Virus record (IMG/VR): IMGVR_UViG_3300021090_000042
Coordinates: 1-45,688 of that record
From: a virus
DNA length: 45,688 nt
Reading direction: 5' to 3' (one strand)
Position numbers and translations under genes: made by a program. Below, one piece after another: positions 730-45,688 of the stretch; the stretch's first letter is position 1, and every line of letters begins with the position of its first letter. Under the pieces are notes generated by a model that did not search any database, had not been told where the DNA came from, and worked only from the letters and a program-made list of their open reading frames with translations.

Positions 730-1872
730 ATGACAGCTAGTCCTGCATTACTTGATCTTAATACTGGACTTCCTATTTCTTCATCTCCTTATCAAAGACA
801 ACCTGGCTTTGAGTCTACAACTACTACAACTCCTGGAAGAGTTGATACAACACAGCAGACAACACAACAACGAACAGAGCAACAACAAATAACTTCTCAG
901 AATATTCTTAATACAACTCCTGGTGCACTTCAAGCTTTAGAGGAATTAATACGTCAGTTATCTGATAGGCCGGCCGTCTCAGAAGCGGAACTTGATGCAA
1001 AGGCACCTAATGCAACTGCATTTTATACACCAACTGGTTGGATTTATACTGATCCACTTACAGGACGCAATCTTGGGCCACAAGAAGTTATTCAGTTTAA
1101 TAAACAACGTACTGCTGAACGTCAGAAACTCAAAGAACAAGCAGGTGTAATTAAGGGTGGAACAGAATCTCAAAAAGTAACTGAAGGACAACGTCAACAG
1201 GAAATTGGTAGAACTCGTGAACAGCAAGGTAAATATAGTAAAGAAGTTGCTTTTTCAGATGCTCAATTTTTAATTGATAAAGCTATTACAGATGCTCTTG
1301 AACAAGCAATGCCAGGAATTGTTGCTGCATCTGAAGGTGCAGGAACTTCTAAAGGAACATTTCGTGGTTTAGCTCTTGAACAAGCTGCAACTAAGGGTGG
1401 TGTTGAAGGTGGTGCTCTTGGTGCTCAACTAAGTGTTCAGTACGGCCAGATCTATAATCAGTTAGAAGCAATGCTTGTTGAGATGACAAAACAAGATCCT
1501 AATTCACCGGCTGCAATGCTTCTTCAAGCCTTACAAGCTTCAAAAGGAATGGTTCAATCTGGTTCTACTTTTTCAAGTACTTCTGGAAATCAAACTGCAC
1601 AAGTGCAATCTCAAACACAAGTTGGTCCAACTCAACAGAGAGCTGATACTGTAAGATCTTATGACATTGCAGGTCAAACTCCTGGTGCAATGAGTGGTAT
1701 TCCTAATGTTCTAAGCAGCACACCAACTCCAAATGCTCCTGTTACTTCACCCAGTCAAACACCAATAGGTGGGCTTTACATCTTTTCAATGGGTGATAAT
1801 CCTCAACAAGAAAGTGATACTTTTGATACAGATCAATCATATGAGGATATTATTGGAATGGAAGAAGAATAA
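730..1872 (+). CDS. Internal virion protein, first of three (T7 gp14-like position)
   Basis: This 380-residue protein has a low-complexity N-terminus rich in Thr and Gln (about residues 25-60). A helical, Gly/Ala-rich middle follows (about 170-270, with the motif GALGAQLS), and the tail is polar and acidic. A small amphipathic, Ala/Gly-rich core flanked by disordered ends is typical of the small ejection protein that inserts in the outer membrane during genome entry. The start follows an AAAAAGG ribosome site and lies 5 bases after the previous stop. Its own stop overlaps the next start (TAATG). No enzymatic motif is visible. The role is inferred from gene order (nozzle, then 380, 557 and 1761 residues), which parallels T7 gp14-gp15-gp16. 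Confidence 0.55.
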   Translation: MTASPALLDLNTGLPISSSPYQRQPGFESTTTTTPGRVDTTQQTTQQRTEQQQITSQNILNTTPGALQALEELIRQLSDRPAVSEAELDAKAPNATAFYTPTGWIYTDPLTGRNLGPQEVIQFNKQRTAERQKLKEQAGVIKGGTESQKVTEGQRQQEIGRTREQQGKYSKEVAFSDAQFLIDKAITDALEQAMPGIVAASEGAGTSKGTFRGLALEQAATKGGVEGGALGAQLSVQYGQIYNQLEAMLVEMTKQDPNSPAAMLLQALQASKGMVQSGSTFSSTSGNQTAQVQSQTQVGPTQQRADTVRSYDIAGQTPGAMSGIPNVLSSTPTPNAPVTSPSQTPIGGLYIFSMGDNPQQESDTFDTDQSYEDIIGMEEE

Positions 1873-3545
1873 TGGCACAAAATCCAGGACAAGATCAAGA
1901 AGAATTTGATCCTGCAACTCTTCTTTTACAAACATTACAACAATCTTCTGCTGATCTTACAGAAGAAGCATCTGTTCAGATGATTCAATCAAGTGCTGAG
2001 ATGATTCAAAATGAAACAGTTTCTCAAGTTCCTGGGATTTTTGATCAAGATTTGAATGCCTTGTACGAGAGGATCTCAGGGCCGGCCAAGACAATCTTTC
2101 CTGATGGAACAAAGATATTTGGTAAGGTGCAAAAAACAGTTGATTCTGCAACTGGTCATATAACTATTACAAATACTCCTGAGCCAGTTAAAACAAATGT
2201 AAATCCTGCACAAACTGCACGTAATGTTATTCAAAGTGCTTCACAATCATTTCCTATATCTTTTGATGTTGAGAAAGAACTAGGAAAACTTAAAGGACTT
2301 AGGGGTGAAGAACTTTCATCTGCAATAACTTCAACCTTAGCTACTATTGATACAGAAATTACAAAACAAAGACAGCTTATTAATAAACAAGCTGCAGTTG
2401 AGTCAGGTTATATTGCTGCACAAACTGCTCTTGAAAGAAGCTTACAGGCAGAACATATTCCTAATCCTAATTTTGGTGGCCTTTCATTCAATCAACGCTT
2501 TGGATTTGCTTCTGCTCAGACACAACAAGCTGAGTCTTTTGCATCAACTACAAGAGTTCAAATGATGGCACTTGAAAAATCAATGATTGAGCGTGATCTT
2601 TCTGTTTCTAGATTAGTAAGTGCTAAACAAGCAATTCTTAAGATAGAAATGAGAACTGCTGAAAGACAGATGAAGGAGGATGATAGATTAGATGCTATTA
2701 CTTCTCAACAAGTTGCAAATTATAAATTTATTTATGGTAAAGACTTAGATGATCTTACAGCACGTAGGGCTATTGTTAATAGAGCAGCACAAGATAAAAT
2801 TGTTGCCAAGACTGTGGCTGTTACACCTGAAAATGTATATACAATTATTCTTGATCCAGAATTACGAGTTAGAGAGAATGCATTGAAACTTGTTCTTGAA
2901 TATGATAAGGCCACCAATAATCTTGATTCTTCTGCCACACAAACTCCTATTACAGAACGTATCAAAGAATTTGTAAAAGAACCTATTAAACTTCTTGATG
3001 CAGTTGTTGCAACTGGAGCAATTCCTGAGAAAGAAGCTGATACTCTTCGTACACAATGGATTGCTGCTGATACAAAAGAACGTGCTTCTTTACAACAAGG
3101 TGCTTTTGCTTCACTTCTTGAAAAATATATTGAGGGGCAATATGAAGTTGGCTATGATAATATGAAAAAATGGAAAGCTAATGAAATGGATATAAAATCT
3201 CCCCTTGGTAGTGTTATTGATAGAATATCAAAGACTAATTCAGCTGGTAAAGCTAATCTTAATACAGTTATTGAAACATTTATTATGGATCAAACAATCA
3301 AGGGGGCCGACGGCCAAGTTATCCCATATGAACAACGTCTTGCAATTCTTGATTCTGCTTTAGGTGGAGCAATTTCTAATGAATTTAAGTCAATCTTATA
3401 TCCAAATACAGACTCTTTAAGAATTAAAATGTCTAATAAAATTAGAAATGCTGCTGCTCGTGCATATATTAAAGTAAAGACAATTAGTCCAGATACAGGA
3501 TTGTGGGAATATCGTAGAGATTTAGGAAGTCATTATGCCCCTTGA
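1872..3545 (+). CDS. Internal virion protein, second of three (T7 gp15-like position)
   Basis: This 557-residue protein is predicted to be mostly helical and rich in Gln, Ala, Glu and Lys, with long coiled-coil-like stretches (about 140-290). No transmembrane segment or catalytic motif is visible. Its ATG shares one base with the previous stop, with a GGAAGAAG ribosome site in the upstream gene. Its 3' end overlaps the next gene by 11 bases, so the three genes look translationally coupled. By order and size it corresponds to the middle ejection protein of short-tailed phages, which forms part of the periplasmic tube. The function is inferred from context only. Confidence 0.55.
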   Translation: MAQNPGQDQEEFDPATLLLQTLQQSSADLTEEASVQMIQSSAEMIQNETVSQVPGIFDQDLNALYERISGPAKTIFPDGTKIFGKVQKTVDSATGHITITNTPEPVKTNVNPAQTARNVIQSASQSFPISFDVEKELGKLKGLRGEELSSAITSTLATIDTEITKQRQLINKQAAVESGYIAAQTALERSLQAEHIPNPNFGGLSFNQRFGFASAQTQQAESFASTTRVQMMALEKSMIERDLSVSRLVSAKQAILKIEMRTAERQMKEDDRLDAITSQQVANYKFIYGKDLDDLTARRAIVNRAAQDKIVAKTVAVTPENVYTIILDPELRVRENALKLVLEYDKATNNLDSSATQTPITERIKEFVKEPIKLLDAVVATGAIPEKEADTLRTQWIAADTKERASLQQGAFASLLEKYIEGQYEVGYDNMKKWKANEMDIKSPLGSVIDRISKTNSAGKANLNTVIETFIMDQTIKGADGQVIPYEQRLAILDSALGGAISNEFKSILYPNTDSLRIKMSNKIRNAAARAYIKVKTISPDTGLWEYRRDLGSHYAP

Positions 3546-6500
3546 TTACGCTGAGAAATATGATATTGCAGCTGAAGCATCTGACAATATCTTAGGAACA
3601 ACTAAGAATTTTATTGTATCTACTGCTGCTGATGTTGTTTCAACACTTTATAATTCACTTCCATTTGTTCCTGAAGCTAAGACTGAAGATATTCTTGACC
3701 ATGTGGACAAAGATGCACTAGCCTTTTATAAAGAAAATACTGATACTGTAAGAACTGCTTCTCTTATTGGTGGAGCTTTTATTCCTGGTGGTGTTGCTCT
3801 TAAATTGCTTGGAAGAGCTAGGGCTGGCGTTTCTTCTGTTGGATATGTGGAAAATGGAATCTTAGGTGTAGCAAAAGGAACAATTACCGGTCAAAGACAA
3901 AAATATCTTGCTTTAGAAATTGAAAAGACATTTGCTGAATCTGGTGCTGCAACATCTCAATATAAAAATCTTGTTCGTCAACTTTATGCTTCTAATATTG
4001 GACAAGCAACAATTGATAATGCTATTATTGAAGCAGCAGTTGTGGGAGCAATGAATGCACATCCTTATATGGAAGATTATCTTAAAGATCCTGTAACCAA
4101 TTTTGCTTTATATGGTTTAGTTGGTGGTGGTGTTTTTAGTTTGTTTACAATTCCATCTACACGACGCTTGCTTACTGATCTTAAGAGTCCAATTATGGAG
4201 CAGGCAATAGAACATATTCGTACAGAAAAAGGTTATCAGCCAATTGCTAAGAAAGATCATTCTCTTACTGCTTCTGCTACTGTTCAAAGAATTAGTTCTA
4301 ATTTACGAATACTTTCAGATATTATCTTAGATCAAGGTGAAAAGGGCTTAACACGAGAAATTGCTGATTCAATACGTAAAACTGATGCTGCACAAATGGA
4401 AGAAGTTATTTTACGTGCTGCTCCTGCAATTATTGGGCCTAAGAAGGCAATCAATAAGGAAATGCGTGACACAGTTCTTGAAATTCTTAGTAATCCAGAA
4501 TTTATTGGAATTGATAAAATTAGATTTTATGATCTTAGTAAAGTAACAACTGCTACAGCAAAGAAAGCAATGATTTGGAAAGATGCTGATGATCTTATTC
4601 ATCAGATTGCCGTTGAATCTGGCTTTAGAGGACAAGATATTGAGGCAATAAAAAAGACTTTTTTAACAGAAGATGGAAAACCTGCAATTGCATTTATCAG
4701 GCCGTCAACTGGTGAACTGTTTGCACCGGCTGGAGTTCGTAATGTTGGTTGGGCTGTTGATGTTAAAAATGCATCTTCTATTATCAAAGCTTCTGCCTCT
4801 GGGCAAAATCGTCTAGTAATAAGCCAACCTGTTAAAGACTTTGCTGAGGAAAATCTCTTGCGTGGCAAATCTTCTGCAATGGTTGATTTAGATTATCTTA
4901 TCGAGTTAAAGAGATTTGATGGCCTTAAGGAAACAGAAATTCCTTATGTTACAATTGCACCAGATCATCTTCCAAGACAAAATGCGTTTCTTTCTTATCT
5001 TTCTAAGCTTTCTTCAGAGGAACAAGCTAAGACAAAAGTTTTTATTCGTTCTGATTATCCAACATATCAGGCACAACAACAGTTTCTTGAGAAGGCTGTT
5101 AGACCAAATCATATTGCAAATATAACAAATCTTGTTGAATCTTCTAAGTTAGATTTTAGAAGTCAGGGAATTTCTGCAAATGCAACACGACTTTTAGATG
5201 ATTGGATACATGGTAAAATTAGTATGTCAGTTGATATTGGTATTGCTAAAGTACGTGCAGCTTTTAGTGCATTTTTACATAAAACAGAAACATCAACTCC
5301 AGAAAACATAGTAGCTGCTAAAGAAATTTGGAATGCAGGAACACCTTTTCGTGAAGCAATGCGAAAAGAGGCTGATCCAGATGGCTTTGTTTATCTTTAT
5401 AGAGGAACAACAGCAAGAGCAATAAGTGCTGCTTCAGTTCAATCTTACACACCAAAGATAAATGTTGCAAAAGGATTTGGCCCTAGTGCATCTCTTTATC
5501 GTGTTCACGTTGATAATATTATTGGAACAGTTGGTTCTGGTGGGTTAAGAGAAGCTGAAATTCTTGTATCTTCACCACATCCACAAATTGTAAATAATAT
5601 TCCTATTGAAACTGCTGCTTCTCGTGCAGTTCAAATTCCCACACCTGAAACAGCACAAAAGTTTACAGTTAATGAGTTCTTTAAGTATTATGCAGATGAG
5701 ACAGAAAGACAAGTTAAGAACTTACTTGCTTCCAAAATTATGAGTATTGAAGAAATCTCATCCCGTCTTAATGTAACAACAGATGGTGTTCAGGCCGTCA
5801 TACTAGGTGCTAAGTTGTCAGAATATCCTGCTGAATGGCGTCGTTATACAAATGCTGCTGATATTGATTCTAAGTATCTTAACCTTAAGAACAAACTTTT
5901 TGCTGCAATTGGAAATCCATCAAAGAATCCTAATGCAGAAGCTCTTGCAAATCTTGATAATCGTAATTTGCGGATTGCTCATAATGAAATTGTAAACCAA
6001 ATGACACAACTTTCAAATAGCAGAATTGCCGGCCAATTAGCAGAAGTCTTTCAGGAAAAAGATTTTCAATTAGCTCTTGACTCTCTTACAAATAACCTAG
6101 CTGAGATTAACATTGTTAAAGTAGGAGCTGCACAAAATGCATTGATTCCTCAATCTGCTGATCAAATTGTGCGTAACCTTAAAGATGGATCACTCTTGAC
6201 CTTTACTGGAAAACGTGTAATTGACACCTCTGATAAAGTTAAACGTCAATTGCTTGAACCTCTTGCATCAGTTTTTGTCCCTTTCAAAGATAAGCCAGAA
6301 CTTTTTGCTGAATTTAATACGGCTATAAATCGTTTACGAGGTTCACAAGGCTGGCGTGATATTCGTGTTGATAAAGATACTGGATATGGTTTTATTGTTC
6401 AAAAGCAAGGCATTGGTAAGCAGATTGCTGAAGTTCCTATTAAGAACAAGGATGGATCAATTTTTTATATTAAACAGCAAGGTGTCTTAGATGCTCTAGA

Positions 6501-8820
6501 AGGAATGAGAGAACCAGCTTCAGAGATTTTAAAGTTACATAATCTTGTTAGGCGTATTACAGGGATGCCTCCTGTGCATGATCTTGGCTTCTATGTTCCT
6601 CCACTTCCAATTGCAAATAAGGCTCTTGCTTTTGTTATTGATAACTCAGGATTACAAGATGTTCGTCTTTTGACGGCCAACAATCAAACTGAACTTGAAA
6701 CTCTTATTAATTCATACAAAAAGGTTAATTCAAATGATATTGCTTCTGGAAAACTTAGTGTTGTTAAGGAAGGTGAAAGAGCTGATTTTAACTTAGCAAA
6801 ACAATACACAAATTATGAGTCACAAATTACATATGCTGATATAAGCCAATTTCATACAGGAAGTTCTGCTCTTGCAATTATACCATCTGATGCACGTTTT
6901 GTAAATGAAATTATGCAAGGATTTGAACAGCAAATTCTTAATGGAACTCGTAGATATGCTGAAACTTCTTTAAGTGATACAATGGCTTGGCTTGATAAGT
7001 TAAGTGCATATTATCAAGGTGGAACTGAAGGAAGTCCACAAAGAGGAATATTTAAACAAAGTGTAAGAGATCCTGCACTTGCAGTTAAAAATATATTGCT
7101 TGGTCGTGACCAACTTGAATCTTCTGTTCCACTTAAGGCTATTAATTCTCTTACAGAGATGCTATATAATAGAGCCGCCAATGCTGTTAATGCAACAGCC
7201 AAAGCATTTTCTTATGAAAAAATTGGTTCCAAAGAATTTTTTGAAAATTTGAATATAAATCTTAAATCTAAGGGAATTGATTCTCCATGGCAATCATTTG
7301 ATGAATATCTTGCAACAACAGTTGCTGAATCAGGTAATATTGCTCCTAGAATTCAGAGCACAGGAAATGGAATGCTTGCAACAATGAATCTTCGTGTATT
7401 TGAGTTGGCACAAGCTGCAATTAACATTATGTCGCTTCCAATTCTTACATGGTCTTCCTTAATGGAGAAATTACCAGGAACAACCTTTAATCCTAAAGGT
7501 GACATGATAAAGATGCCTCTTGAGGCAATGTATGATGGAATGAGATTTATGTATTCTGATGCTGGTAAAGAAATGATTAAGAAGTGGGAACAGGCCGGCC
7601 ATATCAAACAGGCTGTTCGTCAATACACTGAATTAACAGCATCCCTTAAGGCTGCATCACAAGGACGTGAATTTACAGACAAAGCATTAGATGCTTTGGA
7701 TAAGGTTCAAAACTCAAAGATTGTTAAGGATTATTTCTCGAAGCCTGCTGACTGGGCTGAAGAATGGACACGAACCTATGTCATGTCAACAGGTTATTTG
7801 GCTGCGAAAAAAGCTTATCCTGGAATTGGAGATACAGCAGCAACAATAGCAGCTGTTGCTTTTACTGATCGTTCTGTGGGTAATTACTATGCACATCAAC
7901 GTCCTGTATTATTTCAAGGGACGTTTGGTGCTGCAATTGGTCTTTACCAAACATATGTTCTTACTTATGCTCAATCAATTTACCGAAGCCTTGAGAATAA
8001 GAACTTTAAACAGTTAGCTTCGCTTGCACTTGCTCAGTCCGGTATCTTCGGTATGGCATCCTGGCCCGGCTATCATATGTTGTCAGAGCAAGTTGTAGGA
8101 TCAATGTCCGACCACCATATTGACCTGACAACCGGAACTTACCGTGCATTAGACGATCAAGCTGCACGTCTAATTCTTTATGGACTGCCTTCTTCAATTG
8201 GGCCAGCGTTCTATACTCGCGGTGATATTTCTCCACGGATTCCCTCTACAATGGGTGAAATTGCTATATTTAATGGCATGAAACAGGGTTTTTCTGCTGC
8301 TCATTCAATTATTAGTAAGACAGGAGAAGGAATAACAACAGGAAATGCAACACAATCTATGTTTGAAGCTTTGTCTTTACAGTCAATGAATAGACCAATT
8401 GCTCGATGGGCTGAACTTGTATCGGGGTCTTCGATAACACAAGAGTATAATACAATGAGTCCATCTTCAGAGGTTTGGACTCCACTTGGTGTCTTTGCAC
8501 GTCTATTAGGTACACGTCCGCTAGAAGAACAGGTTGTGCGTAATGCTCAATACCTAAATAGATTTTATGAATCATTGGATCACGACAGAAGAGCAAAAGC
8601 TGTAGATGCTCTTTCGACTGCGATTCGTAATAATACTCTAAATGGGGAAATCCTTTCTCAGACTGCATCTGATTATCTCCGTTTTGGTGGAACATCCAAA
8701 GGTTTTCGTTCTGCTTTGAATGAAGTAATGCTTAAGTCAGAAGAAGGAACAAGAGCAAATATGATGAGAAAGCTAGAACCTGATTCACCTTTAAGGCAAA
8801 TGATAGATAATTTATATTAA
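3535..8820 (+). CDS. Giant internal virion (ejection) protein with an ADP-ribosyltransferase-like segment
   Basis: This 1,761-residue protein is the largest in the genome and the last of the ejection-protein trio, where T7 has gp16. It starts at an ATG with AGGA seven bases upstream, inside the previous gene. A Gly/Ala-rich hydrophobic stretch lies near residues 75-100. Residues about 618-690 read like an R-S-E ADP-ribosyltransferase: YRGT (R623), SYT (S637) followed by a vAkgF-type helix start, then an ExE turn (E673, E675) before a beta strand. The C-terminal 350 residues (GLPSSIG, TRGDISPRIPST) resemble the C-terminal regions of other large podovirus virion proteins as I remember them. No lytic transglycosylase motif was found. 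Inferred: it travels in the capsid and is injected, so the ART-like segment could modify a host protein at once. The ART call comes from motif reading alone. Around 8040-8230 codon use becomes more GC-rich than in the rest of the gene. Confidence 0.6.
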   Translation: MPLDYAEKYDIAAEASDNILGTTKNFIVSTAADVVSTLYNSLPFVPEAKTEDILDHVDKDALAFYKENTDTVRTASLIGGAFIPGGVALKLLGRARAGVSSVGYVENGILGVAKGTITGQRQKYLALEIEKTFAESGAATSQYKNLVRQLYASNIGQATIDNAIIEAAVVGAMNAHPYMEDYLKDPVTNFALYGLVGGGVFSLFTIPSTRRLLTDLKSPIMEQAIEHIRTEKGYQPIAKKDHSLTASATVQRISSNLRILSDIILDQGEKGLTREIADSIRKTDAAQMEEVILRAAPAIIGPKKAINKEMRDTVLEILSNPEFIGIDKIRFYDLSKVTTATAKKAMIWKDADDLIHQIAVESGFRGQDIEAIKKTFLTEDGKPAIAFIRPSTGELFAPAGVRNVGWAVDVKNASSIIKASASGQNRLVISQPVKDFAEENLLRGKSSAMVDLDYLIELKRFDGLKETEIPYVTIAPDHLPRQNAFLSYLSKLSSEEQAKTKVFIRSDYPTYQAQQQFLEKAVRPNHIANITNLVESSKLDFRSQGISANATRLLDDWIHGKISMSVDIGIAKVRAAFSAFLHKTETSTPENIVAAKEIWNAGTPFREAMRKEADPDGFVYLYRGTTARAISAASVQSYTPKINVAKGFGPSASLYRVHVDNIIGTVGSGGLREAEILVSSPHPQIVNNIPIETAASRAVQIPTPETAQKFTVNEFFKYYADETERQVKNLLASKIMSIEEISSRLNVTTDGVQAVILGAKLSEYPAEWRRYTNAADIDSKYLNLKNKLFAAIGNPSKNPNAEALANLDNRNLRIAHNEIVNQMTQLSNSRIAGQLAEVFQEKDFQLALDSLTNNLAEINIVKVGAAQNALIPQSADQIVRNLKDGSLLTFTGKRVIDTSDKVKRQLLEPLASVFVPFKDKPELFAEFNTAINRLRGSQGWRDIRVDKDTGYGFIVQKQGIGKQIAEVPIKNKDGSIFYIKQQGVLDALEGMREPASEILKLHNLVRRITGMPPVHDLGFYVPPLPIANKALAFVIDNSGLQDVRLLTANNQTELETLINSYKKVNSNDIASGKLSVVKEGERADFNLAKQYTNYESQITYADISQFHTGSSALAIIPSDARFVNEIMQGFEQQILNGTRRYAETSLSDTMAWLDKLSAYYQGGTEGSPQRGIFKQSVRDPALAVKNILLGRDQLESSVPLKAINSLTEMLYNRAANAVNATAKAFSYEKIGSKEFFENLNINLKSKGIDSPWQSFDEYLATTVAESGNIAPRIQSTGNGMLATMNLRVFELAQAAINIMSLPILTWSSLMEKLPGTTFNPKGDMIKMPLEAMYDGMRFMYSDAGKEMIKKWEQAGHIKQAVRQYTELTASLKAASQGREFTDKALDALDKVQNSKIVKDYFSKPADWAEEWTRTYVMSTGYLAAKKAYPGIGDTAATIAAVAFTDRSVGNYYAHQRPVLFQGTFGAAIGLYQTYVLTYAQSIYRSLENKNFKQLASLALAQSGIFGMASWPGYHMLSEQVVGSMSDHHIDLTTGTYRALDDQAARLILYGLPSSIGPAFYTRGDISPRIPSTMGEIAIFNGMKQGFSAAHSIISKTGEGITTGNATQSMFEALSLQSMNRPIARWAELVSGSSITQEYNTMSPSSEVWTPLGVFARLLGTRPLEEQVVRNAQYLNRFYESLDHDRRAKAVDALSTAIRNNTLNGEILSQTASDYLRFGGTSKGFRSALNEVMLKSEEGTRANMMRKLEPDSPLRQMIDNLY

Positions 8821-9178: not shown

Positions 9179-9420
9179 CTACAATGCCTCATATAAAGTC
9201 TTTCAATGTTTTCAATTCTGTTCTTACTTAAGACTTTAAGTTCTTCATATGCGATTGAAACAGATTCAATAAACTCATAATCCCAGTTAGACATTCCATT
9301 TGGTGGATTATCAAGTAAGGTTTTTAAGTCTTGGATTTGGCCGGCCAAAACAGCAACTTCTTCTGCTGAGAGTCCTGTGCCGGCCTGATCCATTGTTTGG
9401 TTAAGAAGTTCTAGGCCCAT
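9175..9420 (-). CDS. Unknown small helical protein, promoter-distal end of the early block
   Basis: This 81-residue acidic protein is predicted to be almost entirely helical, with the centre reading EEVAVLAGQIQDLKTLLD. It is the last gene of the leftward block, and its stop overlaps the end of the convergent late block by 4 bases. The start ATG overlaps the previous stop by one base, so it is probably translated by coupling. It contains two GCCGGC sites (9340, 9379), one of them in an octamer GGCCGGCC. No family recognised. Confidence 0.6.
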   Translation of the reverse strand: MGLELLNQTMDQAGTGLSAEEVAVLAGQIQDLKTLLDNPPNGMSNWDYEFIESVSIAYEELKVLSKNRIENIERLYMRHCS

Positions 9421-10029: not shown

Positions 10030-10271
10030 GCAGGTATCCTTATTGGTGTAAACTGCACAGTCCAATTATTATTTTTGCATTTTGCTTCTATATTCTCTAT
10101 TGTTATTAGAACATTTCGATAGAAGTGATTATCAAAAATAGGAGCAATTTGAGTAATTTTATAATTATCATCTTTAATATACTTTAAAACCATCCCTCCA
10201 CAGAACTTTTTGCCAGCAAATTCACCTTGCATGTATACAAGAAGTTGTTGATCTTTAGGAGTAAATTCCAT
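10026..10271 (-). CDS. Unknown small protein
   Basis: This 81-residue protein has a predicted mixed alpha/beta composition and begins MEFTPKDQQLLVYMQGEF. It overlaps the glycosyltransferase-like gene upstream by 17 bases and the next gene downstream by ATGA, so it belongs to the same translational chain. No domain recognised. Its place next to sugar-transfer genes may or may not be meaningful. Confidence 0.55.
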   Translation of the reverse strand: MEFTPKDQQLLVYMQGEFAGKKFCGGMVLKYIKDDNYKITQIAPIFDNHFYRNVLITIENIEAKCKNNNWTVQFTPIRIPA

Positions 10272-11199
10272 ACATCTCTTTCATCACAATCTCTCTTGCT
10301 TTTCCCTCTACAATCTCTTTTAGCAAGAATTGATTGTTTGCAAGACTTAAAAGCCAGTTTTCCCTAATTTCCCTAGATGGTCTCCACGGATTTTCAATCA
10401 TATCTAAATTCTCAAGCCTCAATGAAATAGGAGCTGCCGCAGCAAATTGTGAACAAAATGCTGGAATACCTGCGACGGCCCCATCGGTAGAAACATTAGA
10501 AGTATAAGCAACAACTGCATGAGCACCAGACAAATGAGCCATAAGAGGAACTTCATTTCCTTTTCTTCTTATAATGATTTCTCGTTTTGTGTGCTCTTTT
10601 AATTTTATAAGAACTTGAGTTTCCCAGTTTGATAAACCGAAAACTTGTGAGACTGCATCAGATGATGGAGGAATAAGTAAGATATATTTCTTAGAATTTG
10701 TTTCTCTCCAGCCATCATATACTTGAAGTCCCTTAACACATAATGCAATCAGTTTCGAGTCATCTTGATTCTTTGAAATCCAATTCATTTGATAAGCATT
10801 AGGAACGATTCTAAGTCGCCAAGTATCAATATCTGTAAGATGAGGCTTAGCAAGCAAATAGCCAGCATCAATAAAAAGATAGGGTTCACGTCTTGCATGT
10901 TGGATATTGTAGATCTGTTGAAAAACCCTAAGTGATCCATATTGAAGTCCTGTAACAATATGTGTATATCCTTGCCCAAAGTAAATTTGTCCTCTTGATG
11001 CAGGAACCCAAGCTCCATGATTCTTAATATCAAAGCCTTTGAAGATTTGAAGAGAAATTGATGCAAATTTTTCACGGACATAATATTGTAAAAATTTAGG
11101 TTCTTGCTGAAGTTGTTGATTTTGACTCAATGTATGCTCGTAATTTATTTGCAATCTTAATTCTTTCGATGTCTGTTTTATTATACATTTCAGTATCAA
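10255..11199 (-). CDS. Putative GT-B-type glycosyltransferase
   Basis: The frame holds up to 314 residues. The C-terminal half carries a donor-domain-like pattern: AHAVVAYTSNVSTDGAVAG (about 230-250), then IPAF.S.FAAAAPISL, then NPWRPSREIRENWLLSLANNQF. This resembles the 'known location in time, same address each visit' pattern of capsule/CMP-sugar type GT-B enzymes often seen in phages. The likely role is transfer of a sugar to a virion, DNA or envelope acceptor, but donor and acceptor are unknown. The start is uncertain. The outermost start is a TTG at 11199 that overlaps the previous gene by 104 bases, and TTG 11130 would shorten the overlap to 35. No strong ribosome site decides it. It is one of three clustered glycosyltransferase genes. 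Confidence 0.55.
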   Translation of the reverse strand: MILKCIIKQTSKELRLQINYEHTLSQNQQLQQEPKFLQYYVREKFASISLQIFKGFDIKNHGAWVPASRGQIYFGQGYTHIVTGLQYGSLRVFQQIYNIQHARREPYLFIDAGYLLAKPHLTDIDTWRLRIVPNAYQMNWISKNQDDSKLIALCVKGLQVYDGWRETNSKKYILLIPPSSDAVSQVFGLSNWETQVLIKLKEHTKREIIIRRKGNEVPLMAHLSGAHAVVAYTSNVSTDGAVAGIPAFCSQFAAAAPISLRLENLDMIENPWRPSREIRENWLLSLANNQFLLKEIVEGKAREIVMKEMYGIYS

Positions 11200-11842
11200 A
11201 TTGTGAGACTGAAGAATTACCTATTGGATAACGAACTGCTTGATATGTTTCATCAGTTTTTGCTTTACCATATTTGAAATGCATGTGTTCAACTGTAACA
11301 TATTTAAGCCATGAAAGTCTATTAATTCGTTTTGCAATATCCTCAACCCAAGCATCAACACAAAAGTGACGAAAGTAAGGAGGACAAATATTACCTAAAA
11401 GGTGTATCCAATCACTGTGCAAGATAAAATGCTCACATTTCTCACGATTCATTCCATTATTGCAATAAGCAACTAAGATATTATCTGGAACTTTATCCCA
11501 AAGAAGATTGATTTCTGTATTCCATCCTATTGTTCTAAAGATAACATCATCTCCTAGTGCAAACATAAGATCACCTGAAGCAATTGTTGTTGCCATTCTA
11601 TTAAGATGCTCAGGAGCTGACATCTGCTTTGTTGATATATGATACGCAATATTAAGAGTAAGATCAGCTTCTTCTAAGGTTTTTATATAAGTAGAATATG
11701 CAGGATCATCTTCATCTAAACCAACACAGAACTGTAAAGGTTCAAGTGTTTTATCAGATGTTCCCCAAGCAGATGCCATCATTTCAATGAGGCGTTCTGG
11801 CCGACCTCTTGATGGAATGAGCAGGCTAATTTGTCTATCCAT
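11096..11842 (-). CDS. GT-A-type (family 2-like) glycosyltransferase
   Basis: This 248-residue protein starts with SLLIPSRGRPERL, the usual first strand and loop of a GT-A nucleotide-sugar domain. It carries GDDVIF near residues 97-102 in the place of the metal-binding DxD motif. A conserved-looking acidic segment (DAWVEDIAKR, about 163-172) may hold the catalytic base. It acts in the cytoplasm, using a nucleotide sugar to modify an unknown acceptor. It overlaps the GT9-like gene upstream by 8 bases, so both are probably translated together. No membrane segment is present, so the acceptor is likely soluble (virion protein, DNA or a sugar precursor). Confidence 0.7.
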   Translation of the reverse strand: MDRQISLLIPSRGRPERLIEMMASAWGTSDKTLEPLQFCVGLDEDDPAYSTYIKTLEEADLTLNIAYHISTKQMSAPEHLNRMATTIASGDLMFALGDDVIFRTIGWNTEINLLWDKVPDNILVAYCNNGMNREKCEHFILHSDWIHLLGNICPPYFRHFCVDAWVEDIAKRINRLSWLKYVTVEHMHFKYGKAKTDETYQAVRYPIGNSSVSQFDTEMYNKTDIERIKIANKLRAYIESKSTTSART

Positions 11843-12650
11843 ATTTCTTCTCCAAAATCTTTAAGGTTTCATAAACAACTTTCTCGGGTGTAATTGAATT
11901 CATTGCCTTACGACAATGTGAACATGGAATAAGATTGCCACAAAATACTTTTGTGCCTGTAAGATTTGTATGAATTGGGTATCCTGTAATTTTTGGATCT
12001 ATATACCCTCCAAATATAACAATTCCAGGAGTTCCTAATGCAGCAGCAGCATGATGAAAGCCACCTTCATGTGAGATAATCATATCTGCTACAGAGATAT
12101 AAGCAAATATTTCACGAATTGAATGAACTGTATGTATATTACTAGTTAAGTTTAGTTTTGAATAAAAATGATTTAATTGAATTGTGCGTATGTTATTTTT
12201 ATCTAATTGTTTTGTTAAATGTTGCCAATTATGCTTTCCCCAATTCTTATTTTCTTGAAGATGTCCTTTAATTGTTGGTTCAATGAGAATAATTGGATTA
12301 CCATAACCTTTTTGAAAATTCTTTGCAAGTTCGTACTCTTTTTCTGAAAGAAAAATTTCACCAGGTTCTATATCCCATTCTTTCCATACATAGAATTGAT
12401 GATGTTTGGATTTTTCATAATCAATGTAGTGACGGCCTCCACCATTTCCAGAAGATAATGTATAATAGTTTTTATCAAAATTTGGCCTATGTCCAAGTAG
12501 CTCTTTTTTGTTTAAAATGTATGGATTATTTTCCCAAGCAACACTCCAACGCATTAAGCCTTTTGAGTTAACAATAACGTGAGGAATAGGATTTTCTCTT
12601 CTATTCTTTTTGACAAGAGCTGTTACCATTATTTCATCACCTAATCCCAC
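11835..12650 (-). CDS. GT9 (heptosyltransferase-like) glycosyltransferase
   Basis: This 271-residue protein begins VGLGDEIMVTALVK, the GxGDxxm loop typical of ADP-heptose:LPS heptosyltransferases. It later has KNWGKHNWQHLTKQL and a donor site, HEGGFHHAAAALGTPGIVIFGG (GG..H.A.A.G.P...fg). A CxHC..C-like cluster follows near the C-terminus. The frame could open at 12698, but a GTG at 12650 has a perfect AGGAG five bases before it, so I take that start. It overlaps the cupin gene by 10 bases. Known family role: heptose transfer to lipopolysaccharide core. In a lytic phage the acceptor is unknown. It could alter the host surface against superinfection or decorate the virion. Confidence 0.72.
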   Translation of the reverse strand: MGLGDEIMVTALVKKNRRENPIPHVIVNSKGLMRWSVAWENNPYILNKKELLGHRPNFDKNYYTLSSGNGGGRHYIDYEKSKHHQFYVWKEWDIEPGEIFLSEKEYELAKNFQKGYGNPIILIEPTIKGHLQENKNWGKHNWQHLTKQLDKNNIRTIQLNHFYSKLNLTSNIHTVHSIREIFAYISVADMIISHEGGFHHAAAALGTPGIVIFGGYIDPKITGYPIHTNLTGTKVFCGNLIPCSHCRKAMNSITPEKVVYETLKILEKKYG

Positions 12651-13120
12651 ACTTTCTCCTTTGCTTTTTGAAAACCTGTTGCTCTTAAAAAGCCCCATTC
12701 TCTAAATGGGGTAGAATGCCAAAACAAAAGCCAAGTTTCTGGTTCATTGATCTCCATAATTGTATGCCAAGAATACTCACCAAAGTGATTAAAACGATCA
12801 ATATTTTTGTAGAAATAGTAGCCACGAATAATATTGATAACTTCAGGTGATATATATTCAATCTTGCGTTTTTGAAAACCAAATTCAAGACGACGTTCAA
12901 TGTAAGAACCATTAAGGATAAGAGAATAAGCAGATTGCCAAGGATAATTATGAAGATCACGATCTGCATCTGCAAAAAGTATACGATGCAAGTAGTAAGT
13001 ATAACCAAATATACGAAAAAGATAAAAGCGTTCAAGATAGGGAGTGTTGTTGAAGAGAATCTGTTTACAAGGCCGGCCACGAGCAATTAGCTTGAGGATT
13101 GGTAGGGAAAGAATGTTCAT
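12641..13120 (-). CDS. Cupin-fold protein of a common phage family
   Basis: This 159-residue protein follows the phage cupin pattern: PYLERFYLF, then HRILFADADRDLHNYPW with ILNGSYIERR, and a C-terminal ETWLLFWHSTPFREWGF. The RDLH.hPW segment is the usual metal-side strand of this RmlC-like family. A dioxygenase or sugar-epimerase-like role is possible, but the reaction is not established. It stands right next to GT9 and two other glycosyltransferases, so a nucleotide-sugar step is a fair guess. The codons for the REWGF motif also form a small hairpin followed by five T on the coding strand (12686-12711). It overlaps its upstream neighbour by ATGA. Confidence 0.6.
   Translation of the reverse strand: MNILSLPILKLIARGRPCKQILFNNTPYLERFYLFRIFGYTYYLHRILFADADRDLHNYPWQSAYSLILNGSYIERRLEFGFQKRKIEYISPEVINIIRGYYFYKNIDRFNHFGEYSWHTIMEINEPETWLLFWHSTPFREWGFLRATGFQKAKEKVWD
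12686..12711 (-). other. Terminator-like hairpin inside the cupin gene
   Basis: On the leftward strand CCCCATT pairs with AATGGGG (7 bp, loop of 5) and is followed at once by CTTTTTA. It lies about 40 bases before the GT9 start. Since the stem encodes a conserved-looking motif it could be chance, but it has the form of a weak intrinsic terminator or pause ahead of the sugar cassette. Confidence 0.35.
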
Positions 13121-13455: not shown

Positions 13456-14696
13456 GGCATTTCCTCTGGTGTTAGGAAGTCCTTTAATAACATATCATCC
13501 TTCCATCCATTCATTATCTTGGTTAGTGGAACGTATCCACGACGGCCTGCTATCTCTTTGATCTGTATCTTTTCAGCAGCTTCAAGATTTCTAAGTATCT
13601 CTGCCAATTCTTCAAACTTATTAAGATTTGTATCTACTTGTTTCCAAATTTCTCTAACTGTTGCCGGCCTTTTATTCCTTGTAAGATTTATTTTAATGAA
13701 TTCAATAATTGCATTTGCAACATCTGAGTGTTTTCCTTTACCAAATTGTCCTAGTGCTTTTCCCATTCTTTGTTCCGTTGCGTGTAATAAAGTATTAGCT
13801 TGTAATACATGTGAATCTCGAATTTCCAATGAATAATCCATAGCAGCAAAAACAATGCAAAGCTTAAGGATATGGTCAAAACGTCTGGTGTTATAATGAT
13901 TAAAACGAAAATCATCAAGGTAAGAGTATTCTTTATAAACCCTATCCAATAAAGTTCTTGCAGAATTTGATATGGTAATTTCGCCATGTAAATCCTCTTG
14001 TATTTTCTTTAATAAAGACTCCATTTCCAATTTAGCTTGTTGTGAGACAGGCTTTGGAAATGTAATCTGTTTACCAGTAGGCTCACCATGCACAAATACA
14101 ATTCTGGATGTTCCACCTTGTCCTATTGCTTCTATTGGAAGTGCTTGTGCTATTGATTGTTGATTGGCCGCCGCAATAAGATTAACGGTTGGGGCATAGA
14201 CGTATATTGATTTTCCGTGGAGTTTTGGGTGCTTGTATTCGTCCAGGTTGTCCCAAAGGTTTGTAAGTAGAACAATGAATGATATGTTGGCTGTTCCAAT
14301 GAAGTCTTGGAACTCTGCTGCCATAACATATATTTCTGAGGGAGTTTCAAAGTTAAGTCTTTCAAAGTCTATTCCATCAATTGATTCTGGCTGATTAAGA
14401 AGCTGCATTTCTGCAATGAATCGTTCTGCTGATAGACGATCTGGTGCAAGTTTTGCAAATTCAATTCCTTTAAGTAGATTTCTGGCTGGTTTTAATGCTG
14501 TTCCTTTTCTAGCTCCTGGATTGCCTTCCAGCATAACATACATATTAGGGTAAACACGAGAATGTCCAAAAGGAAAAAAGACATTTCTTCCGAGAATAGC
14601 AGCCACGATAGATATTGCACACCAGCGATGATATATATAAGGAGCCTCTGTTTCACCAATGTAGTTGAAGTATTTCTTGTAGAATTCGACGGCCAT
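13452..14696 (-). CDS. DUF3987-type P-loop ATPase (putative replication helicase)
   Basis: This 414-residue protein has a P-loop, EGNPGARKGTAL (K64), and a Walker B-like strand with DFIGTA and WDNLDEYKH after it. APTVNLIAAANQQSI resembles a sensor strand, and the C-terminal half is helical and winged-helix-like (RPATVREIWKQV). DUF3987 proteins are usually the C-terminal helicase-like half of primase-helicases or stand alone in phages. No primase or Toprim domain is seen in this gene. It directly follows the DNA polymerase gene (16 bases), which fits a replication role. The ATG at 14696 has only a weak ribosome site. The first codons, ATG GCC GTC, contain a GACGGCC motif. Confidence 0.65.
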   Translation of the reverse strand: MAVEFYKKYFNYIGETEAPYIYHRWCAISIVAAILGRNVFFPFGHSRVYPNMYVMLEGNPGARKGTALKPARNLLKGIEFAKLAPDRLSAERFIAEMQLLNQPESIDGIDFERLNFETPSEIYVMAAEFQDFIGTANISFIVLLTNLWDNLDEYKHPKLHGKSIYVYAPTVNLIAAANQQSIAQALPIEAIGQGGTSRIVFVHGEPTGKQITFPKPVSQQAKLEMESLLKKIQEDLHGEITISNSARTLLDRVYKEYSYLDDFRFNHYNTRRFDHILKLCIVFAAMDYSLEIRDSHVLQANTLLHATEQRMGKALGQFGKGKHSDVANAIIEFIKINLTRNKRPATVREIWKQVDTNLNKFEELAEILRNLEAAEKIQIKEIAGRRGYVPLTKIMNGWKDDMLLKDFLTPEEMP

Positions 14697-32368: not shown

Positions 32369-33872
32369 TCCTCATTCTCGTCTTACACAAACTAAAGTCA
32401 ATAGCAAAGAAGCTTTTGATGAGGGTTTTAATTCGTTTCAATACTTTTCAACTCTTTGTCTTCCTACAGTTTGTACATTTAAATGGCCTTTTGAATACAT
32501 TGCAATATGGATGCTTCTTATTAAGGCAATAAGAGATAAAGATGAAAGACAGGTAAAAAGAGTTCTAAGGTTTGCTCTAGGCCTTCCACGCGGTTTTGCA
32601 AAGACTACATTTCTAAAACTTCTTGTTACATGGCTTATTGTATATGACTTTATCAACTTTATTCTTATTGTATGTGCTACTGAACCACATGCTGAGAACT
32701 TCTTGGCTGACGTTTCTGAAATGTTATCTGCTCCTAATATGGTTGCAATCTATGGCAATTGGTCTGGTGGTCTTGCAATAGATAATGCCAAACTTAAAAA
32801 ATGTCTCTATCGCCGGCACACAGTGATTATTGCTGCTATTGGTTCAGGAACTTCCGTTCGTGGTCTTAATATAGTTCATGAACGTCCAGACTTTGTTCTA
32901 TGTGATGATATGCAAACAAAAGAGAATGCAGAATCTGATACAGAGGCAACTCATTTACTAAACTGGTTTGTTGGGACACTTTTGAAATGTGTTGATCCAG
33001 TCTTTGCAGTTGTAGCATACATAGGCAATATGTATCCTCAAAACTGTATTCTTTATAAACTTAAAGAAAATCCATATTGGACATCTCTTATCACAGGTTG
33101 TATTCTTGCAGATGGTAAATCTCTTTGGGAAGAACTTCGGCCTCTTGAAGCCTTATATGAAGAATTCAAGCATGATGAAGCTTTAAATCTTGCTTATATC
33201 TGGTTTGCTGAAATGATGAATGATCCAATTCTTGAACGTATTTCTCTTCTTCCAAAAGGAATTCTTCCTACATGTCCTCTTAAAGAAGAAGAACTTAATC
33301 CTGATGCTGGTTTCTGTATTGTTGATCCAGCTGGCTTTCATAAAGCATCAGATGATAATGTTTGTCTTGCAGTTCATGTAATGAATGCAGTTCCTTATAT
33401 ACGTGGAATGATTTCTGGTATTCTTAATCCAAAAGAAATTATTGAGAAAACAGTTGAACTTTGTCTTATTTATAATATTCGTATCATTTTTGTTGAATCT
33501 GTAGCATATCAACAAACCTTGTGTTTTTGGTTCACTGAAGAACTTAAACGTGCTGGTCTATCAGATCACTTTATTATTAAAGAAGTAACACCAAAGAATA
33601 AGAGTAAAGATTCTCGTATTCGTATCTTTATTCAACAACTTATTGCATTGACAGCTTACATTCTAAGTCCAGAAGTTCGTCACAAATTTGTTTTCCAGGC
33701 CTTGCAATATCGTATTGGTAAGAAAACAAATCGTGATGATATTCTTGACGCTCATGCATACATTGAAGATATACGTGCTGACCAGGAACTTTGGGCATTG
33801 GTTCATTCTATTTCATTGAATTCTGCTGAACTTAAAAAAGCTGGTGTTGTAGCAGATAATACTCCATTTTAA
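32340..33872 (+). CDS. terL: Large terminase subunit (packaging ATPase-nuclease)
   Basis: This 510-residue protein has a Walker A-type motif LPRGFAKTT (82-90), the GSGTSVRG loop (168-175), and Walker B with its acidic pair in DFVLCDD (184-190). The RNase H-like nuclease has D329 in CIVDPAG, E386 in IIFVES and a late DDILDAHAYIED. It cuts concatemers and drives DNA into the prohead through the portal encoded next. ATG 32340 lies directly after an in-frame stop and lacks a ribosome site, suggesting coupling to the 56-residue frame. Confidence 0.88.
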   Translation: MDQPTPLISSPHSRLTQTKVNSKEAFDEGFNSFQYFSTLCLPTVCTFKWPFEYIAIWMLLIKAIRDKDERQVKRVLRFALGLPRGFAKTTFLKLLVTWLIVYDFINFILIVCATEPHAENFLADVSEMLSAPNMVAIYGNWSGGLAIDNAKLKKCLYRRHTVIIAAIGSGTSVRGLNIVHERPDFVLCDDMQTKENAESDTEATHLLNWFVGTLLKCVDPVFAVVAYIGNMYPQNCILYKLKENPYWTSLITGCILADGKSLWEELRPLEALYEEFKHDEALNLAYIWFAEMMNDPILERISLLPKGILPTCPLKEEELNPDAGFCIVDPAGFHKASDDNVCLAVHVMNAVPYIRGMISGILNPKEIIEKTVELCLIYNIRIIFVESVAYQQTLCFWFTEELKRAGLSDHFIIKEVTPKNKSKDSRIRIFIQQLIALTAYILSPEVRHKFVFQALQYRIGKKTNRDDILDAHAYIEDIRADQELWALVHSISLNSAELKKAGVVADNTPF

Positions 33873-36142: not shown

Positions 36143-36929
36143 TAGCATTTTTGCACGTTTTCAAAAAAGAAAGGGTGGAAAACCTGTTATCAAGTCTGGA
36201 AGTCAACAAGAAATAGATCCAGCAACAGGAAAACCAAAAATACAGCAGCAACAACAACAGCAAGATGATGGTAGCGAAGAATCTAATGATGCAATGTCTA
36301 TATATGAAGGACTCTTTTCTCCTCCTGATGCTGAAACTCAAAGAAAGAATGAACCTCCTAAATTCTTATTGGCCGCTGACAAAGTAAAGGAAGCAGCAGG
36401 AAAGATGGACTTTACGGCAGGTTTACCTGATGAAATAGTGCAGAAACTCCAATCAGGTGATGCCATTGACGGAAAGACTCTCCTAGCTGCAATTAACTTT
36501 GCCGGCAGACAAGCTTACTCACGTGCATTAGAACATGCGACCGGCCTTACTGGTCACTTTGTTGAAGCACGTGTTAAACATGAGCAGCAAGGTCTCCCTA
36601 CAGCACTACGTAATTACCTTGCAAAATCAAAAGCAGTAAGTGGGCCAGATGTGTCAGATAATCCTGTTGTTAGGGAACATATGTCAATGATCTCTGAGAA
36701 GATCGCTGCCAAATTTCCTGACGCAACAGATGATGAAGTTGCAACACTGACACAGGAATACTTCACTGAAATGGCGAAAGCCATTAATCCCAAAGCTTTC
36801 CAGCAGTTGACTGGACTTGAACAACAAAAACGTGGGAAAGATGAAGTAGTTATTGATGATTGGTCTGCTTACTTACAACCTTCAGAAGATCAACAACAAC
36901 AAGGACAGCAACAACAAAAAGCTGCATAA
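36111..36929 (+). CDS. Scaffolding protein (putative)
   Basis: This 272-residue protein is low-complexity, with Gln runs near residues 44-50 and at the C-terminus. It is charged, helical in the middle (GKTLLAAINFAGRQAYSRALEHATG) and acidic overall. Position between portal and capsid gene, the composition and the length fit a scaffold that guides prohead assembly and then leaves or is cut. GGAG lies seven bases before the ATG. Confidence 0.68.
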   Translation: MPQAPQQGILDSIFARFQKRKGGKPVIKSGSQQEIDPATGKPKIQQQQQQQDDGSEESNDAMSIYEGLFSPPDAETQRKNEPPKFLLAADKVKEAAGKMDFTAGLPDEIVQKLQSGDAIDGKTLLAAINFAGRQAYSRALEHATGLTGHFVEARVKHEQQGLPTALRNYLAKSKAVSGPDVSDNPVVREHMSMISEKIAAKFPDATDDEVATLTQEYFTEMAKAINPKAFQQLTGLEQQKRGKDEVVIDDWSAYLQPSEDQQQQGQQQQKAA

Positions 36930-39429: not shown

Positions 39430-40329
39430 ATGGGTAAAATTTATTCAACAGAAGAAGCAGAATCTCCTTCAACACCTGCCTCTGGTAAAGTAGTACTTTA
39501 TTTTAAACAAGATGGTTTTTGGTATTATAAGAATGATAGTGGAACTGAATTTAAACTTATCCCCGGTTCTGGTAGTTTTATTCCACCCAGACACATACAT
39601 GGACTTACATATTCAAACAGTGCAGGTGATCCTACTAATGATATTGATATTGCAATAGGTTCTGCAAAAGACTCAACTAATGTATTTGATTTAATTCTTA
39701 CAACAGCTATAACAAAGCGTCTTGATGCTGCTTGGGCTGTTGGAACAAATCAAGGTGGTCTTGATACTGGTTCAATAGCTAATAGTGATTATTATATCCA
39801 TCTTATTGGGCGTTCAGACACTGGTGTTATTGATGTTCTTTTTTCTCTATCTGCAACAGCTCCTACTATGCCGGCAAATTATGATTACAGACGATTAATT
39901 GGCTGGATTAAACGTGTTGGTGCTGCTATTGTCTTATTTACTACTTATGAAACTGAAGGTGGTGGTATTGAATTACTATGGACTACACCAACATTAGACA
40001 TTAATCTTATTAATACCTTGACAACAGCTAAACGTACTGATCCAGTTAAAGTTCCACTAAACTTTTCTGTAATAGCAATATTAAATATAGGAATTTCTGA
40101 TGCGGGTGCTTGTGTTGCTTATATTTATTGTCCGGATCAAGCAGATATAGCACCTTCTACTACTGCAGCACCTATGTATACTATTACAGCTCCAGCAGCT
40201 GTAGACGGTGGTAGCAATTTGCATATCAGAACAAGCACAACAGGACTTATTGCTGCTCGTTCAACTACAGCTACTATAGATAAGTATAATGTTTCAACAA
40301 TTGGATTTACTTGGGCAAGGAGGAACTAA
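39430..40329 (+). CDS. Tail fibre / receptor-binding protein
   Basis: This is a 299-residue protein. The N-terminal part (GKVVLYFKQDGFWYYKNDSGTEFKL) is a common phage fibre head. The middle contains AAWAVGTNQGGLDTGSIANS...YYIHLIGRSDTGVIDVLFS, a domain widespread in fibre proteins of unrelated phages. It likely contacts the host surface or links to the fibre tip. Its stop overlaps the endolysin start by one base (TAATG). Confidence 0.7.
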   Translation: MGKIYSTEEAESPSTPASGKVVLYFKQDGFWYYKNDSGTEFKLIPGSGSFIPPRHIHGLTYSNSAGDPTNDIDIAIGSAKDSTNVFDLILTTAITKRLDAAWAVGTNQGGLDTGSIANSDYYIHLIGRSDTGVIDVLFSLSATAPTMPANYDYRRLIGWIKRVGAAIVLFTTYETEGGGIELLWTTPTLDINLINTLTTAKRTDPVKVPLNFSVIAILNIGISDAGACVAYIYCPDQADIAPSTTAAPMYTITAPAAVDGGSNLHIRTSTTGLIAARSTTATIDKYNVSTIGFTWARRN

Positions 40330-41150: not shown

Positions 41151-41537
41151 ATGGCTGAAGCCCGTCGTCTTTATCCATTAACAACACCATTAGGAGAACC
41201 AATACCTCTTGAAGTTATAAGACTTCATGGACTTGGGCGAATTAATTTTACTTCTGCTGACCAAGAAATTGCTCTTTCTACAGATATTGAAATTCTTGTT
41301 TTATATGCAACTCAAGATTGTATTGTCAGATTAGGAATTCTTGCTGCATCTGTGCCTGCTTCCCTTGCTTATCTTGCTGATGCAGTCTTGGTGCCGGCCA
41401 ATCAATATCTTGTGATTGATAAGAATGAGGCAACTGAGTTACATGCTGTTAGATTTGATACAGATGGAATACTTTGGATAACTGGAGTTCGTGCTTGGCA
41501 AGATACACAAAAAGCAGTTCAACATAATAGGATGTAA
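41151..41537 (+). CDS. Unknown beta-rich virion protein
   Basis: This 128-residue protein is beta-type throughout (IEILVLYATQDCIVRLGIL, YLVIDKNEATELHAVRFDTDGILWITGVR). A small baseplate or fibre-cap protein is likely from position. It contains a GCCGGCC site at 41393. No family recognised. Confidence 0.6.
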   Translation: MAEARRLYPLTTPLGEPIPLEVIRLHGLGRINFTSADQEIALSTDIEILVLYATQDCIVRLGILAASVPASLAYLADAVLVPANQYLVIDKNEATELHAVRFDTDGILWITGVRAWQDTQKAVQHNRM

Positions 41538-44667: not shown

Positions 44668-44684
44668 AGAAGGGATCAGTAGAA

Positions 44685-45688
44685 ATGGTACAAGAAACAA
44701 AGGTAATTGATATTAGACGTTCCTATATTCCCATTGATCCCAACGCATTTCCTGCTACAGATCATGCTACAGAAGATGAAGATAAGCCTGAACCACGAAT
44801 TCCTGTAATTGCTTATGATGGTTATAATTTTATGCCAACACCTCAGGGATATTCTTCCTTCTTTGGAGTTAATTCAGTATTAGGAATTGAATCATTGATT
44901 ACAAGTGGAGGAAGTGGTAATGTAGATGATCTTTTTATGATTCAAACAAACTTATTACAAAATATTCTTGTTGCACTCTGTGATGATGGTATTTGGACAA
45001 AATCTGCAAATTCAAGTGGTAATTGGTTCCAAGTTATTCCATTAACTATTCCAGCAGCAGGAACTCATAAATTGTGGTCAAAGTGTGTTATTGAAAATAT
45101 AATTTATGTATATAGACAAGGTGAAGCTTCTGTTTGGCAAGCTGGGCCGACAAACTCTTATGTCTTTACAGCATTTGTTCCTACAACATTAAATATGGCT
45201 GGTCAACTTGGGATCTTCAAAGCTGGTGGCAGATTGGGCTTCTGGGATTCAGAAAATTCAACAGCATGGGCTGCTCTTGGTGATCCAACAGATGCAACAC
45301 CTGATACAAAGACTTTAGCAGGTTCTACAATCTTCCAAGATATTGTAGGACGTATTGTAGTTGTTCTTCAGCATGGAAATGGATTTATTATATATTGTAC
45401 AAAATCAATTGTTCTTGTAATACGTAATATTAATAGTCCTTTAATTTGGTCTGGATCTGCAATCTTTAATTCTAATGGAATTTCATATAGAGAAGAAGCA
45501 TGTTTTGCTGAACCAGATACACACCATTATGCATTTACCACACAAGGAATTGTTGAAATTGTAAATGGTAAAGCAGAATTTGTCATTCCTGAAGTTGGAA
45601 CTTATCTTAAGGAAAAACGCCAGCCTGTTTATCTAAAGATGCTTAATGGACGTTATCTCTTTTTTCCAATTCTTGATCCATATTATTT
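44685..45688 (+). CDS. Nozzle-like tail protein, N-terminal part (continues at window start)
   Basis: ATG 44685 opens 334 codons that run off the end of the window and join the frame at base 1 without a break, giving 575 residues. The visible part contains repeated short beta units of the propeller type (GIWTKSANSSGNWFQVIPL, NIIYVYRQGEASVWQAG, GGRLGFWDSENSTAWAAL). This fits the beta-propeller platform of T7 gp12 or P22 gp10 proteins. It lies before the ejection genes. AAGAAGGG lies before the start. The role is inferred from position and the propeller-like repeats. Confidence 0.6.
   Translation, partial: MVQETKVIDIRRSYIPIDPNAFPATDHATEDEDKPEPRIPVIAYDGYNFMPTPQGYSSFFGVNSVLGIESLITSGGSGNVDDLFMIQTNLLQNILVALCDDGIWTKSANSSGNWFQVIPLTIPAAGTHKLWSKCVIENIIYVYRQGEASVWQAGPTNSYVFTAFVPTTLNMAGQLGIFKAGGRLGFWDSENSTAWAALGDPTDATPDTKTLAGSTIFQDIVGRIVVVLQHGNGFIIYCTKSIVLVIRNINSPLIWSGSAIFNSNGISYREEACFAEPDTHHYAFTTQGIVEIVNGKAEFVIPEVGTYLKEKRQPVYLKMLNGRYLFFPILDPYY

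Follow-up and report, generated by a model that had tools for sequence, protein, structure and literature searches.

The palindrome GCCGGC as a DNA-level signal in a clade of podoviruses, and its possible origin

The genome and its sites

The DNA considered here, IMG/VR virus record IMGVR_UViG_3300021090_000042, is a stretch of 45,688 bases with a G+C content of 36.4% (below, the window), and the element in question is the palindrome GCCGGC which, together with the related word GNCGGCC, is strongly over-represented in it. Among its genes, those for terminase, portal, major head protein, A-family DNA polymerase, primase and helicase can be identified; scanning the window for tRNAs and searching it against Rfam gave no match. 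A near-identical permuted contig (G002, 14366-15604) bridges the window ends (1 and 45688) via ~1.24 kb missing from the window, so that the window amounts to a nearly complete genome in permuted form. Among named phages, those closest to it are Polaromonas phage Tiera, EBPR podovirus 3 and the Pseudomonas PaP2/119X group (PaP2 being in Fredfastierviridae, Jamesmcgillvirus). They have the same gene layout, and homologues of the window's terminase, portal, DNA polymerase and helicase occur in them in the same order, at ~35-47% protein identity. The window is a podovirus of PaP2/119X/Tiera type. The named relatives infect Pseudomonas, Polaromonas and Aeromonas.

The original prediction put GCCGGC at about 22 copies and GGCCGGCC at 7, and both counts are exact, the first GCCGGC being at 969 and the last at 41393. 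All 22 are within coding sequence. None lies beyond 41398, in keeping with the sparse stretch earlier noticed at 42-45 kb, and what closes the range first given, at 45151, is a GTCGGCC. GCCGGC alone occurs once per 2.1 kb; when the GNCGGCC forms on either strand are included (GACGGCC 14, GCCGGCC 20, GTCGGCC 5, GGCGGCC 2), there are 41 sites in 45.7 kb (~1 per 1.1 kb). The sites are given below with their state, where relevant, in the related phage G006 and in the fragments L010, L153 and L154 dealt with later (+ and - denote strand).

968-975, GGCCGGCC, in frame AGG CCG GCC; overlaps GACGGCC (-) at 972-978
2080-2087, GGCCGGCC
3305-3315, GTCGGCC (-) at 3305-3311 overlapping GACGGCC (+) at 3309-3315
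4700-4706 (-), GACGGCC; GCCGGCC in G006
5793-5799 (-), GACGGCC
6028-6033, GCCGGC; retained in G006
6672-6678 (+), GACGGCC; retained in G006
7593-7600, GGCCGGCC; GCCGGC core retained in G006
9339-9346, GGCCGGCC
9379-9384, GCCGGC
10474-10480 (+), GACGGCC
11799-11805 (-), GTCGGCC; GCCGGCC in G006
12431-12437 (+), GACGGCC
13071-13078, GGCCGGCC; retained in G006
13541-13547 (+), GACGGCC; retained in G006
13663-13668, GCCGGC; lost in G006
14166-14172 (-), GGCGGCC
14688-14694 (+), GACGGCC; start of the primase gene
16637-16644, GGCCGGCC
18662-18667, GCCGGC
19258-19264 (+), GACGGCC; GCCGGCC in G006
19400-19406 (+), GACGGCC
20265-20271 (-), GACGGCC
20987-20992, GCCGGC; retained in G006
21647-21652, GCCGGC; retained in G006
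23316-23321, GCCGGC
23994-24001, GGCCGGCC
25479-25484, GCCGGC
25776-25782 (+), GACGGCC
28432-28438 (+), GACGGCC
30664-30669, GCCGGC; GCTGGC in G006
31347-31353 (+), GGCGGCC
31990-31995, GCCGGC; retained in L010, GCCGGT in G006
32812-32817, GCCGGC; retained in G006, GTCGGC in L010
33918-33924 (-), GTCGGCC
36501-36506, GCCGGC; retained in L153, GCTGGC in G006 and L154
38158-38163, GCCGGC; retained in G006 and L153
39394-39400 (+), GTCGGCC
39870-39875, GCCGGC
41393-41398, GCCGGC, in frame GTG CCG GCC; GTA CCA GCA in G006
45145-45151 (-), GTCGGCC; GCCGGCC in G006

Excess, specificity and turnover

Against the 22 copies observed, a dinucleotide Markov model predicts 1.2, genome-wide synonymous-codon shuffles (n=500) give 1.6 +/- 1.3 and never more than 7, and codon shuffles within genes give 3.1. 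The excess earlier estimated from base composition accordingly stands, though the G+C figure of 35% then used does not, and the codon-shuffled counts, proposed as a check, come nowhere near the real one. A third-order Markov model, likewise proposed, expects 10.6, a figure that is high because the model is trained on the enriched 4-mers of the same sequence. In both types of codon shuffle GCCGGCC is the top 7-mer by z-score (20 versus 0.34-0.81), and CCGGCC and GCCGGC are the two most enriched 6-mers. Over the window phage and its closest relatives, the enrichment of GCCGGC is ~15-fold.

The codons CCG, CGG and GCC are, as had been stated, otherwise rare (35, 17 and 101 within their families), with 6 of 18 CGG codons falling inside the motif. 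All three reading frames are used, in line with the mixed phases first described, but unevenly, with 14 of the 22 sites in frame as Ala-Gly; among Ala-Gly pairs, GCC-GGC accounts for 14 of 73 where single-codon usage predicts 1.1. Protein or codon constraint is ruled out as the cause by the genome-wide and within-gene shuffles, and its insufficiency holds for two phages, the window and G006, that are ~78% identical. GC islands are also ruled out, the 120 bp flanking the sites having a G+C content (37.9%) close to the genome average. The GCCGGC excess is a DNA-level signal.

The signal is narrowly specified. GCCGGC is the top of the 64 6-bp palindromes in both the window and G006, in the window against a general avoidance of 6-bp palindromes (584 versus 784 expected), and among 68 viral stretches these two are the strongest outliers for any palindromic hexamer. 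Swapping any base sharply lowers the enrichment; in the window ACCGGT, TCCGGA and CGGCCG have no real excess, with CGGCCG, equal to GCCGGC in composition, present in 2 copies. Degenerate methylase words (RCCGGY, plain CCGG and GGCC) were dropped as descriptions, since nothing beyond the complete palindrome and GNCGGCC is conspicuous; ACCGGC and GCCGGT together number 8 versus 4.9 expected in the window and 8 versus 8.1 in G006. The flanks have no strong consensus outside the 8-bp core, and so nothing like the 9-12 bp consensus of an uptake word. Even spacing, another proposed check, is hinted at in the window (coefficient of variation 0.66, p = 0.03) but absent from G006 (0.97), and was rejected as a feature.

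All N variants of GNCGGCC are enriched, and one of them differs between lineages. In coding DNA of the window GACGGCC occurs 14 times on both strands together, versus ~1 in codon shuffles; the base before it is T or C at 13 of the 14 sites and never G, giving (Y)GACGGCC. G006 has only 5, and two alignable GACGGCC sites of the window are GCCGGCC there; (Y)GACGGCC enrichment is confined to the window's lineage.

G006 (47.5 kb; 78% nucleotide identity to the window over 33.7 kb aligned) has 27 GCCGGC, 25 of them coding versus 2.5 in codon shuffles, and 39 sites when GNCGGCC is included. A third lineage, represented by fragments L010 and L153 from one metagenome, has 7 + 5 = 12 in 10.3 kb where a dinucleotide model gives 0.5, and a possible fourth, L154, has 1 in 4.2 kb. 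The next relatives are without the excess, with 0 copies in 25.0 kb (63% terminase identity) and 1 in 45.6 kb (47%). Tiera and PaP2, which have the same gene order, also lack it (1 versus 5.9 expected and 4 versus 4.8), and EBPR podovirus 3 has 6 versus 2.5. The excess is thus confined to a single recent clade and is not a family-wide property of these phages.

Within the clade the places are not kept. Of 18 alignable GCCGGC sites, 7 are shared by the window and G006 (background GC-rich hexamers 20%, p = 0.07), and lost sites are often several synonymous changes apart, e.g. AGG CCG GCC at 969 versus AGA CCA GCA in G006. In the terminase-to-head region most sites are present in one or two lineages only, and L010 alone has the site at 33330 and 34567 (window coordinates), two places at which the window and G006 share another sequence, so that L010 has gained it there. 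Individual sites are thus lost and gained between lineages while the total stays high. Free loss in relatives had been named in advance as grounds for abandoning the signal, and single sites are indeed lost freely; the total, however, is maintained by gains, and the signal stands. Turnover of position with a stable total argues against fixed-position functions such as operators or packaging sites, the latter among the meanings originally proposed, and for a genome-wide process, which may be biased mutation or repair, methylation, or a binding word whose effect depends on its density. Dispersed repressor sites (stoperators), which occupy fixed positions in short intergenic gaps, were rejected given the exclusively coding location and the turnover.

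A possible host process acting on the word

The closest parallels are the highly iterated palindromes (HIPs) of cyanobacteria. HIP1 (GCGATCGC) is, like GCCGGC here, scattered through coding DNA, though it is a different word (CGATCG has 0 copies in the window) and one of chromosomes rather than of a phage. Closer still is the alternate HIP rCCGGy of Oscillatoria PCC 10802, another GC-rich palindrome around CCGG hugely in excess, at about 1 per kb or more, with GCCGGC among its enriched forms. There, however, GCCGGT and ACCGGC are enriched too and the rCCGGy methyltransferase gene is in the cyanobacterial chromosome, whereas in the window only full GCCGGC and GNCGGCC are in excess, in a phage in which six-frame searching of the window detected no C5-methyltransferase gene (no PF00145 match). 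Each alternate HIP, rCCGGy included, is accompanied by a cognate methyltransferase and occurs at close to 1 site per kb, the density near which the methylation-directed repair bias proposed for HIPs would settle (Elhai 2015, PMC4390886). The phage word is likewise a GC-rich palindrome far above composition, beyond what codon or protein content explains, and of the order of 1 per kb across the genome.

This pattern (GC-rich palindrome, ~1 site per 1-2 kb, free of position and limited to a clade) matches cyanobacterial HIPs, and a HIP-like host process is favoured. GCCGGC is here tentatively taken for a highly iterated palindrome, occurring at ~1 per 2 kb without regard to position, with copies constantly disappearing and arising anew, most likely through host machinery acting on the word. 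On this view the host in which the phage replicates would have DNA machinery that targets GCCGGC, such as a methyltransferase specific for the word working together with strand-biased mismatch repair, and mutations creating GCCGGC would be preferentially retained in host and phage alike. The host origin of the process, the involvement of methylation and the choice of biased repair over selection are all three steps that we infer.

Several observations weigh against such a process. Known alternate HIPs are, to our knowledge, all cyanobacterial, whereas the phage's named relatives infect Proteobacteria, and no cyanobacterial link for the phage was found. The rCCGGy intermediates of Oscillatoria type are not enriched in it, and a simple GCCGGC methyltransferase does not predict enrichment of GACGGCC. 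Single-step changes are scattered over the site and do not cluster on a single cytosine, as they might if a methylated base were being deaminated, and a methyl-cytosine decay signature at one position was dropped. Nor did host surveys yield a genome with the excess: 369 Gammaproteobacteria searched for AT-flanked GGCCGGCC had at most 4 matches per genome; 398 Pseudomonadota were surveyed with an over-strict pattern missing even from the window, making this a weak test, and ten better-scoring genomes, spot-checked, had no matching excess; and when genome contigs were searched with a terminase profile, the only matches were 3 distant loci, all in metagenome bins and in stretches without GCCGGC excess.

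A HIP-like word in a phage of non-cyanobacterial appearance is not described in the open-licence literature searched. The window may, with the same reserve, represent a HIP-class palindrome outside cyanobacteria, in a clade of lytic podoviruses of proteobacterial type and re-created in each lineage, which would mark either an undescribed host methylation/repair system or a recognition code specific to the phage. HIP1 and its alternates have gone unexplained for decades, partly because they were studied in slowly evolving whole chromosomes, and a 46-kb phage clade with close lineages, fast turnover and a signal-free outgroup is a small system in which to set biased repair against selection. The word may also help to link an uncultured phage to its host.

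Alternatives and minor observations

Less probable, but a serious rival to the host process, is selection for the density of a binding word, with a phage or host protein (a RecBCD/AddAB-type nuclease stopped in Chi-like manner, or a recombination or nucleoid protein) reading GCCGGC/GNCGGCC such that phages rich in copies would fare better and spacing would matter but not position. The phage encodes its own recombination set (a Sak4-like protein at 18467-19429, a RecB/Cas4-like exonuclease at 20888-21853 and a Dda/RecD2-like helicase at 25182-27293), and the enrichment of every N form, the somewhat even spacing in the window, the coding location of all sites and a retention slightly over background point the same way. 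Chi sites too are short GC-rich words enriched genome-wide in coding DNA. Known Chi words are, however, asymmetric, while the GCCGGC core is palindromic; the GNCGGCC orientations (11 versus 3, with ~2:1 predicted by codons) leave no further strand bias, and the uneven spacing in G006 also counts against a binding word.

That a common ancestor gained many sites in a burst under past conditions, with its descendants now only losing them, is improbable. The transition neighbours GCTGGC/GCCAGC are mildly over expectation (17 versus 10), as decay would leave, but from the shared fraction of 7/18 the ancestor would have needed roughly at least 45 sites; gains are the simpler account of 33330 and 34567, and the third lineage is denser still.

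Much more doubtful is an uptake-type signal, in which the host takes up DNA bearing the word and the phage shares it via recombination or selection. This would produce genome-wide, position-free enrichment in coding DNA such as was counted, and the uptake signal sequence (USS) of Pasteurellaceae and the DNA uptake sequence (DUS) of Neisseria are also short words over-represented genome-wide. USS and DUS are, though, longer asymmetric words; GCCGGC is a bare 6-8 bp palindrome lacking such an extension, and it is not obvious why a lytic podovirus should need uptake words.

No more credible is DNA modification at the word by the phage itself, e.g. via glycosyltransferase-like genes at 11-12.7 kb. 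The open reading frame at 11096-11842 has a match to phrog_14945 (glycosyltransferase) and a weaker one to phrog_2675, which is annotated as DNA methyltransferase; that at 11835-12698 matches Glyco_transf_9 (heptosyltransferase-like) and has distant homologues in Caulobacter giant phages, which suggests glycan rather than DNA chemistry, and the lack of a PF00145 match also tells against modification. Separately, the cluster of glycosyltransferase-like and unknown genes on the minus strand at 10255-13120 is atypical for a 46-kb podovirus, and is retained in G006 at ~71% nucleotide identity.

Least credible is an artefact of codon-pair preference, GC islands or amino-acid content, with which the in-frame Ala-Gly sites and the third-order expectation would agree, but not the excess left by within-gene shuffles, the involvement of all three frames, the average G+C of the flanks or the scarcity of CGGCCG.

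Viral contigs scanned for TTTGGCCGGCCAAA were mostly unrelated, and a few had a GCCGGC excess of their own; selected for the word, they are uninformative on its prevalence. An unrelated viral contig from IMG/VR (L069/G386; 34 kb, ~41% GC) has 46 GCCGGC and 21 CGGCCG, another strong GC-rich iterated word. In a 2.45 Mb Pseudomonadota genome (G728; L171, L184-L192) ACCGGT occurs 95 times versus 26 in 200 kb, and AAGCGG/ACCGCT words resembling the Pasteurellaceae uptake sequence are also present.

The window strongly avoids GTAC, and both it and G006 avoid ATCGA/TCGA and many 6-bp palindromes (ATCGAT 0 versus ~7; in G006, CCATGG 0 versus 8.3 and AGGCCT 0 versus 6.6), which suggests past restriction pressure. 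In the wider group, GATC is nearly missing from G007 (L051-L053), at 2 versus 117, and L032 and L035 have 0 GATC, with GGCC and CCGG nearly missing too.

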